Below are positions 1 through 1,510 of a stretch of DNA of 35,321 nucleotides, piece by piece (the stretch's first letter is position 1; the number at the start of each line of letters is the position of its first letter). Source of the stretch: Nitrospira sp. (GTDB lineage Bacteria > Nitrospirota > Nitrospiria > Nitrospirales > Nitrospiraceae); assembly GCA_013140455.1 (NCBI GenBank), contig JABFSU010000010.1, positions 1 through 35,321 on the forward strand, given 5' to 3'. The position numbers and the translations under genes were made by a program. Below the pieces are notes generated by a model, which searched no databases, was not told where the DNA came from, and saw nothing but the letters and a program-made list of their open reading frames with translations.

Positions 1-442
1 TACCGGCCATATCACGGCCGTTGTTGAGGCCTTGCACCAGCTGCATGACCTGCACGGAATCGAGATCATAGACCGGCTTGGCCTCTTTGTGATCGCCGAC
101 TGTCGGATAGTCACCGGTCAGACAAAGAATGTTGCGGATGCCGAGCATGTGGGCACCCATGAGATCGGACTGCATGGCAATCCGGTTCCGGTCGCGACAG
201 GTCAGCTGCATCACCGGATCATGGCCCAATTCATAGAGCAATCGACAGACCGGCAACGACCCGGCGCGGACGACGGCGGCCGTGTTGTCGGTCACATTAA
301 CGCCGTGCACGCGCCCAACCAGTTCTTTGGCACTCTCCAGCACTTTCGAGATGTTGGTGCCCTTCGGCGGGTTGTACTCAATCGTCACGGCAAACTGCCC
401 GCTACTCAGGACTTCACTCAACCGCCGCGGTTCCTTGCTCAT
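1..442 (-). CDS. metF: methylenetetrahydrofolate reductase (MetF family), 3' end cut off by window edge
   Basis: Reading the minus strand from an ATG at 440-442 gives about 147 residues of an open frame that runs off position 1. Visible family marks are the N-terminal catalytic-type Glu (E22, in TIEYNPPKG), the NVTDN stretch near residue 54, LTCRDRNRIAMQSDL, and LTGDYPTVGDH followed by YDLDSVQ. These are typical of the FAD-dependent TIM barrel that reduces 5,10-methylene-THF to 5-methyl-THF in the cytoplasm. A GAGGGAGA-like ribosome binding site lies just upstream. It follows folD on the same strand about 207 nt downstream, so both enzymes of the C1-folate branch are adjacent. Only the N-terminal half is visible, so the full domain structure (for example a fused C-terminal part) cannot be judged. 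Confidence 0.85.
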   Translation of the reverse strand, partial: MSKEPRRLSEVLSSGQFAVTIEYNPPKGTNISKVLESAKELVGRVHGVNVTDNTAAVVRAGSLPVCRLLYELGHDPVMQLTCRDRNRIAMQSDLMGAHMLGIRNILCLTGDYPTVGDHKEAKPVYDLDSVQVMQLVQGLNNGRDMAG

Positions 443-501
443 ACCATCTCCCTCGCCATTATCCACTCCCCTACTTCATCCCTTACCCAGCTATAGAGGA
501 C

Positions 502-644
502 TGGAGGCGCTCCACTGCGCGCATGCACCAATCTTATCTCCACTCTTCTAGAGATCGAGCGGGGCACTCCACATTGCGCGCATCCAACGAGGGTCTTCTG
601 AGACCGCGCGTTGGGCGAGCACTGGAGGGTTCCGCTCGATCTCT
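502..644. repeat. palindromic repeat element between folD and metF, with a degenerate half copy
   Basis: Positions 550-562 (AGAGATCGAGCGG) and 632-644 are perfect 13-bp inverted arms. Further nested complementary blocks lie between them: CTCC 567-570 with GGAG 624-627, TGCGCGC 575-581 with GCGAGCA 615-621 (one mismatch), CCAACG 584-589 with CGTTGG 609-614, and GGTCT 592-596 with AGACC 601-605 around a TCTG loop. The whole forms a roughly 95-nt imperfect hairpin beginning just after the folD stop. At 502-530 there is a second, partial copy of one arm: the core CTCCACTGCGCGCATGCACCA resembles CTCCACATTGCGCGCATCCA at 567-586. It resembles REP/MITE-type intergenic elements. Dispersal in the genome is inferred, because only one locus is visible here. 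Confidence 0.7.
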
Positions 645-649
645 CCCTC

Positions 650-1510
650 CTACACCATCCCCGCCATTCGCTTGGCAGACTCCACCGTATTCGCAAGCAA
701 CATGGCGATCGTCATAGGGCCGACGCCACCGGGCACGGGGCTGATCCAGCCTGCCTTTTGGCTCACGGGTTCAAAGTCGACATCGCCACAGAGCTTTCCG
801 TCCGTCCACCGATTGGTACCGACGTCAACGACGACCGCGCCTTCTTTCACCATATCAGCCGTCACAAATTTGGCTTTCCCGATCGCGACCAGCAAGAGGT
901 CCGCCTCACGGCAGACTGCGGGCAAATCCTTAGTCTTGGAATGGCAAATCGTCACGGTTGCGTTGCGCTGCAACAACATGAGCGCTAACGGCTTTCCCAC
1001 GATGTTGCTGCGACCCAACACCACCGCACGCTTGCCTTCAATGCCGACACCGGTAGACTCGATCATCTTGATCACGCCTTTGGGAGTGCAGGCTTCAAAG
1101 ACCGGGCTCCCTTCAACCAACCGGCCAAAGTTATACGGATGGAATCCATCGGCATCCTTGTCTGGCGAGACTGCTTCAAGCACGACTCGGCTGTCGATGT
1201 GCTTCGGAAGCGGCAGCTGGACTAAGATCCCATGGACTTTGGGATCCGCATTCTTTTTTTCAATCAATGCCAAGAGATCCGCTTGTGTCGTACTGGCCGG
1301 TAATTTGTAATCATCGATGTAGATCCCTGCCGCCTCGCAGGCTTTCTGCTTGCTCTTCACATACTGATGCGACGCAGGGTCATCACCGACCAAAATGGTG
1401 GCGAGGCCCGGCTTGGTCCCAGTCTTTGCCAGGACCGCCGCTGATTCAATTGCCAGCCGGTCACGAACTTGCTGCGCCAATGCCTTCCCGTCGATGAGTC
1501 GTGCTCCCAC
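650..1510 (-). CDS. folD: bifunctional methylenetetrahydrofolate dehydrogenase / methenyltetrahydrofolate cyclohydrolase
   Basis: A 286-residue protein, normal length for FolD. It interconverts 5,10-methylene-THF, 5,10-methenyl-THF and 10-formyl-THF using NAD(P) in the cytoplasm. The N-terminal catalytic domain carries the YVKSK motif with Y50 and K54 in the positions known for the E. coli enzyme, then GILVQLPLP and the DADGFHP substrate loop. The Rossmann part has CTPKGVI and GRSNIVGKP, and the C-terminus has SPVPGGVGPMTIAMLL. All expected active-site blocks are present. It is transcribed ahead of the metF-like gene. A plausible promoter lies about 45 nt upstream of the ATG. Confidence 0.97.
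   Translation of the reverse strand: MGARLIDGKALAQQVRDRLAIESAAVLAKTGTKPGLATILVGDDPASHQYVKSKQKACEAAGIYIDDYKLPASTTQADLLALIEKKNADPKVHGILVQLPLPKHIDSRVVLEAVSPDKDADGFHPYNFGRLVEGSPVFEACTPKGVIKMIESTGVGIEGKRAVVLGRSNIVGKPLALMLLQRNATVTICHSKTKDLPAVCREADLLLVAIGKAKFVTADMVKEGAVVVDVGTNRWTDGKLCGDVDFEPVSQKAGWISPVPGGVGPMTIAMLLANTVESAKRMAGMV

Follow-up and report, generated by a model that had tools for sequence, protein, structure and literature searches.

Short non-autonomous intergenic hairpins such as MITEs, ERIC and NEMIS have conserved ends and a freer interior. REP and REPIN sequences, reportedly the subject of a 2011 paper by Bertels and Rainey, carry a GTAG or GGAG tetranucleotide 5' of the palindrome, and the attC sites of integrons carry the boxes RYYYAAC...GTTRRRY. 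Nitrospira, the host considered here, are major nitrite oxidisers. According to the available text of PMC3116915, REPINs and REPs are mobilised by RAYT transposases, and the insertion sequences IS1397, ISKpn1 and ISPsy8 insert within REP palindromes, as stated in the accessible part of PMC1525189. In Nitrospira moscoviensis, 3,788 putative REPs have been reported by RepRanger, which the available portion of PMC12306157 gives as a count and not as a motif. The hairpin repeat family described below, found in Nitrospira-family bacteria, has apparently not been described so far; no description of it was found among the open-licence PMC papers listed on palindromic, REP, stem-loop or MITE repeats of Nitrospira.

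The hairpin between folD and metF

The window, that is, the whole stretch of 35,321 nucleotides of a Nitrospira sp. contig (JABFSU010000010.1) that was analysed, carries a hairpin that comes after folD and before metF and points the same way as the two genes (Table 1). On the minus strand, the end of folD is followed by the left arm (644-622), the core (621-575), the right arm (574-550), a purine tail and a half repeat. A first-pass annotation had described a hairpin of about 95 nt after folD with 13-base perfect outer arms, part of an arm recurring about 57 bp away, and both features are real. The hairpin spans 550-644, its arms (550-571 and 623-644, 51 nt apart) are 86% complementary, and the outer 13 bases (550-562 and 632-644) pair perfectly. 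The predicted RNA fold of 500-660 reaches -73.8 kcal/mol against -50.7 for shuffled sequences (z -5.75; 0 of 200 shuffles equal it), while DNA folds of 548-646 give -37.0 on the plus strand (z -8.0) and -31.5 on the minus strand (z -6.9); with stability this far above that of shuffled sequence, the earlier observation of a hairpin is confirmed. The recurring segment, 506-522 against 563-579 at 76% identity, is the right half of another core that has decayed (516-533), and 503-539 gives a weak covariance-model match (E 4). At the intact core, covariance model R1 matches 562-632 with 63.8 bits (E 5e-18). For the left arm, 622-644, no second genomic copy was found at E <= 0.001. By eye, the tail at 534-549 resembles the tails of the mobile copies described below.

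Table 1. Features of the folD-metF intergenic region and its flanking genes in the window.
Feature	Position	Strand	Basis
folD	650..1510	-	PF00763, PF02882; stop TAG 650-652 adjoins hairpin base
Left arm (folD direction)	622..644	-	Inverted repeat and folds; pairs with 550-574
Conserved 47-nt core	575..621	-	Pattern match G000:C99:575-621:-, covariance model R1, covariation
Right arm (folD direction)	550..574	-	Inverted repeat and folds
Purine-rich tail AGAAGAGTGGAGATAA after right arm	534..549	-	Same stretch at folD in relative G029 (L091)
'Degenerate half copy': right half-core 516-533 and start of older element's right arm	503..533	-	2 mismatches
Rest of old right arm, ending CTCTATAGC	490..502	-	Matches CTCCTACAGC/AAC of relatives
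metF, cut by window edge	2..466	-	PF02219; next gene, same direction

A repeat family with a fixed core inside free arms

The folD hairpin belongs to a repeat family. The core reads TGCTCGC...ATGCGCGCA, with the half-sites TGCTCG-N5-CGCGC and TGCTCG-N4-ATGCGCGCA and complementary spacers, and follows the plan TGC[T]CGC nnn nnn C, loop, T n'n'n' n'n'n' [AT] GCG[C]GCA; it thus comprises a pair of half-sites, a spacer that varies but is paired, and an AT bulge and mismatches that stay constant. Most cores are 47 nt long, others 45-46 or 67-73 nt. Because most element sets were gathered by a fixed pattern, the pattern's own letters were excluded as evidence of conservation, and only wildcard positions and arms are counted as such. 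Pair 9:37 reads G-C in 77 of 98 distinct 47-nt cores and C-G in the other 21, and 95 of the 98 have A-T, C-G or G-C at pair 11:35.

The arms around the cores differ from site to site yet keep pairing, and the core is conserved inside them. Arm tests drew on 217 distinct elements of 218, of which 195, those with complete 60-nt flanks and 10 or more arm pairs, entered: the arms pair over a median of 21 positions (quartiles 19-23), as against 6 after right arms were swapped between elements. Where elements behind the same gene have arms less than 35% identical, pairing extends over 22 positions in the native combination and over 12 in hybrids. Among 34 diverse elements, 13 of 20 pairs have two-sided changes, with 98 cells against 38.4 in shuffled data (0 of 500 shuffles as high). 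Within single loci, covariation is seen at 5 of 29 pairs in ten atpD|atpC sequences (matched by 2 of 500 shuffles) and at 7 of 33 pairs in seven folD sequences (matched by 46 of 500); the folD covariation score and the changed cells are each matched by 0 of 500. The folD stem takes in the stop codon, with TTGTAG opposite CTACAA, or, in locus L199, CTGTGA opposite CACAG.

Distribution across genomes

The first-pass annotation had proposed that many dispersed intergenic copies with covarying stems in the genome and its relatives would speak for a repeat family, and such copies were indeed found. A search of the window's own genome with 545-650 gives strong matches to the inner part alone; the half-core pattern GCTCGGTNNATGCGCGCA, allowing for 2 mismatches at most, gives 26 matches against 2 for the reversed control, and the covariance model finds at least 28 copies there. 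Over 148 genomes of the phylum, the model, by which counts are lower bounds since the best 33 candidates per genome were scored, has matches in 31, which are all but one of the 32 listed genomes of the family and span five of six genera, genus g18 being free of the element; among the best 33 candidates per genome, it has none in the 116 other genomes of the phylum. A strict pattern occurs in 37 of 78 relatives, all within the 47 same-genus genomes (own included), and in 0 of 31 other-genus genomes, while a looser one occurs in 53 of 59 same-genus genomes (control 0). In the genome_contigs set, the 80 loci listed of at least 119 are titled Nitrospira or Nitrospirae/Nitrospiraceae, except for one record, labelled uncultured Nitrosospira, with two loci. 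A single-copy palindrome is rejected in view of the dispersed copies in the own genome and the family. Likewise, an origin from phage, plasmid or virus was dropped, as there was no match to the exact pattern in viral_contigs and none to query 545-650 in plasmids and phages.

Several observations concern assembly. In genome G000, the atpD-atpC copy (L003; G000:C12:1-118) starts at contig base 1 with a perfect 35-bp inverted repeat, while in the close relative L299 the left arm is normal and imperfect; these perfect arms are probably a fold-back assembly artefact at the contig end, and the row was excluded from A2 and, being without 60-nt flanks, from the 195 arm-test elements. On G000 contigs C12, C16, C17 and C42, the distance from element to contig end is about 100 bases or less, from which it appears that the repeat probably breaks the assemblies of these Nitrospira genomes.

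Position behind stop codons

Orientation was assessed against genes called by a codon-usage script and not taken from annotation, for 184 copies with called genes on both sides (31 elements without a called gene on one side were excluded). A same-strand stop lies within 60 nt upstream of 122 of the 184 copies and is absent from that range in 62; an opposite-strand stop lies within 60 nt downstream of 2, one copy being in both classes. The left arm begins at a median of 2 nt past the stop. In the own genome, the pattern-found relatives and the folD set taken together, 55 of 59 copies are within 60 nt of a same-strand stop and none is reversed; in genome_contigs, 67 of 125 are behind a same-strand stop and 2 are antisense. 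The upstream genes, by Pfam, are housekeeping genes, including folD, atpD, the SAICAR synthetase gene, ahcY, nuoC/D, guaA, ribBA and others. Judged by eye, the element is present at folD in 14 of 28 genomes and missing in 14 (2 of 30 loci, L096 and L106, could not be judged), and present at atpD in 21 of 29 and missing in 8 (1 of 30, L314, not judgeable). The near-absolute orientation to stop codons exceeds what plain mobility predicts, and could reflect a job in the transcript. At the same post-stop spot, L307 and L318 (atpD-atpC) and L366 and L369 (the L361 locus) have plain long hairpins without the core, which suggests that Nitrospira has hairpin repeats of still other families.

Strand bias of the fold

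In arms read in the mRNA sense, 314 apposed pairs are A.C and 116 are G.T; the counts are 198 and 91 where Watson-Crick pairs flank them, and 49 and 12 by locus. An A.C on the mRNA strand is a tolerable G.T on the other. When arms are grouped into families, the bias holds at 70% identity (55 against 20) and fades as more arms are pooled, to 21 against 11 at 60% (p 0.11) and 8 against 5 at 55% (p 0.58). It is weaker beside the core (138 against 102), and marginal once arm positions 8-10 and 17-18 are removed (41 against 24, p 0.046). The A.C appositions cluster at arm positions 8-9 and 17 from the core, perhaps as structural marks or through shared ancestry. By DNA parameters, the antisense (template) strand is the steadier in 179 elements against 14, and in 141 against 53 for the arms alone; by RNA parameters, the antisense strand is more stable in 136 of 192 elements and the mRNA strand in 56. 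The constant mismatches of the core are T.C as mRNA and G.A on the template. The wobble count does not decide the matter alone: besides fading under pooling and weakening near the core, it might equally stem from cells that disfavour very stable mRNA hairpins at stops. Combined with the core mismatches, it points to a DNA hairpin of the template strand as the likelier acting form.

The first-pass annotation had also considered that the structure might work at the end of the transcript, and this role finds no support: after the stem, 0 of 183 elements have at least 5 T in 8 nt, and both the mismatches and the fold energies are biased towards the strand complementary to the mRNA. An intrinsic (rho-independent) terminator is thus rejected for want of the T-run, and, the complement of the mRNA folding better, a single-stranded DNA hairpin element is favoured over an mRNA terminator. 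A known RNA family was rejected as well, because Rfam 15 gave 0 matches in the window at gathering score and, at E up to 10, sub-threshold microRNA matches alone.

Mobility, nesting and half copies

In the related genus g16, arms are shared among elements at different loci, and 50 elements form one single-linkage group. In twenty stretches of genome G210 with 25 copies, the inner 12 left-arm bases are common to 11 copies at up to 1 mismatch and to 15 at up to 2 (by eye). A unit of about 139 bp recurs in g16 genomes at 82-94% identity, and g16 copies have both arms and tail in common. As regards terminal repeats of the MITE type, arms are common within subgroups only, and no autonomous partner was seen among the loci examined. 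Cores and arms are reshuffled among elements, as in L124:2407 and L198:5175, which have arms in common and different cores.

Copies also nest. In nested copies, the outer core runs to ...CCTCAGAAG, the whole inner element follows, and the outer core resumes at GAAGGCCCTCGTT..., the insertion being in the apical loop. At one orthologous locus, the outer element is intact in G210, G245 and G167 and split by an inner one in G241, so that L370 is nested where L361, L363 and L364 are un-nested. By eye, the nested junctions read CAGAAG|...|GAAG and are ambiguous, as the GAAG-type repeat may be the unit's own end; since the tail of the unit, like the target loop, ends in TTGGAAGG, no length is claimed for a target duplication. 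At L365, a different hairpin repeat (of the TCTGGTCTATCTGG type) occupies the core loop where family members nest elsewhere, and the core loop may therefore be a general insertion hotspot. A conserved stretch close to CCCGGGCTAATGGCACGTCTCGGCGTGCCAGTGGGTGGGCGGGTGAGAAAG lies downstream of the nested copies at L133, L157, L160, L194 (shorter), L217, L220 and L235.

Of 209 complete elements, 23 are followed 30-150 nt downstream by an orphan right half, in most cases at 46-64 nt (0 in the other-strand control). The folD locus displays several states: L088 and L089 have one entire element, C, whose right flank GGAGNGCCTCCAGTCC matches window 490-533; G029 (L091) has elements A and B in succession, followed by the right half of C; and the window has B and the right half of C. 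From this series, it appears that B displaced the left half of C. In ten stretches of the own genome searched for half-sites around a gene, complete or decayed elements and chance matches were seen, and no autonomous copy.

Weighing the explanations

The window element is probably, though with considerable room for doubt, a hairpin repeat of the Nitrospira family that behaves as a non-autonomous mobile element and works as a folded single strand of DNA. The closest fit is a REPIN- or MITE-like hairpin that would be mobilised in trans by a putative enzyme. In such a scheme, a putative trans-acting recombinase or transposase would recognise the core once the template strand (the plus strand here) is folded, and would move it with its arms and a short tail, a unit of about 139 bp in all. 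Copies would survive chiefly where they do least harm, straight after a stop codon, and new arrivals would land in or beside old copies, leaving a half-core some 50-64 nt downstream; at folD, the older C would have been displaced by element B (550-644), with 490-533 as its remnant. No mobilising gene was found. More tentatively, and with doubt outweighing belief, the family might represent a hairpin-DNA mobile element of inverted design, in which the core is exchanged among unrelated stems, insertion occurs at hairpin tips, the template strand is acted on by an enzyme that is neither RAYT nor integrase, and the elements are tied to the stops of transcribed genes.

A functional mRNA element, i.e. 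an intercistronic post-stop hairpin that protects, cuts or slows the message (compare REP and NEMIS), spread long ago and kept by selection on RNA, would account for the 122 of 184 copies within 60 nt past a same-strand stop with 2 reversed, for left arms starting a median of 2 nt after it, for sites between co-directional genes such as folD|metF and atpD|atpC, and for two-sided changes that keep pairing. An RNA helix, however, predicts G.U over A.C, whereas the mRNA strand shows 314 A.C against 116 G.T and is the less stable in 136 of 192 elements even by RNA parameters; moreover, there is no T-run, and the element is missing at 14 of 28 folD and 8 of 29 atpD loci. We regard this explanation as unlikely, while giving it some weight. 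The same strand bias could be read as the mark of an antisense RNA against the gene end, because the antisense strand folds better by RNA parameters too (136 against 56) and a sense-strand A.C is an antisense-strand G.U, but there is no Rfam match, and the core boxes have a fixed sequence on either side, a pattern at least as well suited to the binding of a DNA hairpin; an antisense RNA is improbable.

Template switching can repair palindromes, keeping the arms matched whatever their sequence, and ordinary long palindromes kept perfect in this way, without mobility or function, would thus have matched arms. That account leaves the family-wide core, the fixed arm length, the orientation to stops, the shared-arm copies and the nesting unexplained, and is judged very improbable. 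An attC site of the integron type, or the remnant of a cassette array, is scarcely credible, although such a site is likewise an imperfect hairpin with bulged bases behind an ORF, in one orientation and with the bottom strand the more stable (179 against 14 by DNA parameters), and the window core GCCCAAC...GTTGGAT fits the consensus RYYYAAC...GTTRRRY. Both boxes are present in just 16 of 171 distinct cores, the integron integrase TIGR02249 scores above cut-off in 6 of 59 genomes, the window's own not among them, and the neighbours are housekeeping genes. The box and integrase counts largely refute the attC reading, and since both failed, the repeat is not filed as attC.

The repeat described here is placed between genes of core operons of Nitrospira; the examined loci include folD-metF, atpD-atpC and nuo genes. 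It offers a natural case of a DNA hairpin with a fixed inner core and a freely evolving yet paired stem, which is useful for learning how folded single-stranded DNA is recognised, and the family may point to a new recombinase. It also carries a warning that long inverted repeats at Nitrospira contig ends can be assembly artefacts.

Comparison with known systems

With respect to MITEs, ERIC and NEMIS as generally known, the Nitrospira family is turned inside out, its interior being conserved and its arms free. The REP- or MITE-like reading of the first-pass annotation stands in part: dispersed covarying copies and mobile behaviour in relatives speak for it, and the family departs from it in two points, the conservation of the core instead of the arms and a RAYT link that was not found. 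The half-sites of the core do form two imperfect inverted palindromes around a spacer, as in REPs and REPINs. Of 30 Y1 loci with up to 1.5 kb of flanks, none has the exact right half-core; 7 of the 30 have chance-like one-mismatch matches to the left half, those in L262, L263 and L271 (TGCTCGCCTGGTGCGA or similar) lying at the same place, about base 1446, beside the Y1 transposase gene. PF01797 is missing in 13 of 59 genomes, 10 of which bear elements (up to 13), and across the 59 the number of elements is unrelated to PF01797 (rho 0.05, p 0.69). As the link to RAYT failed, the repeat is not filed as REP.

Set beside the attC sites of integrons, as far as the available text of PMC2727003 describes them, the family is alike in that the bottom strand is folded, extrahelical bases set the choice of strand, and one orientation behind an ORF prevails; it is unlike them in that few cores have the R box consensus, no integrase is above cut-off here and no cassette array is seen. 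From REPINs, within what the accessible sections of PMC3116915 cover, it differs by the site-variable outer arms of about 21 bp, the orientation bias to stop codons, the nesting in the apical loop and a RAYT association that was not found. It resembles them, in the same sections, in being extragenic and present in many copies, with imperfect inverted half-sites around a variable spacer, a predicted single-stranded DNA hairpin, compensatory changes and decayed single halves. Finally, like IS1397, ISKpn1 and ISPsy8 in the available part of PMC1525189, the Nitrospira elements insert at one fixed point of a palindromic repeat; unlike in those REP-targeting insertion sequences, the inserted unit here is a small, gene-less hairpin of the same family as its target.
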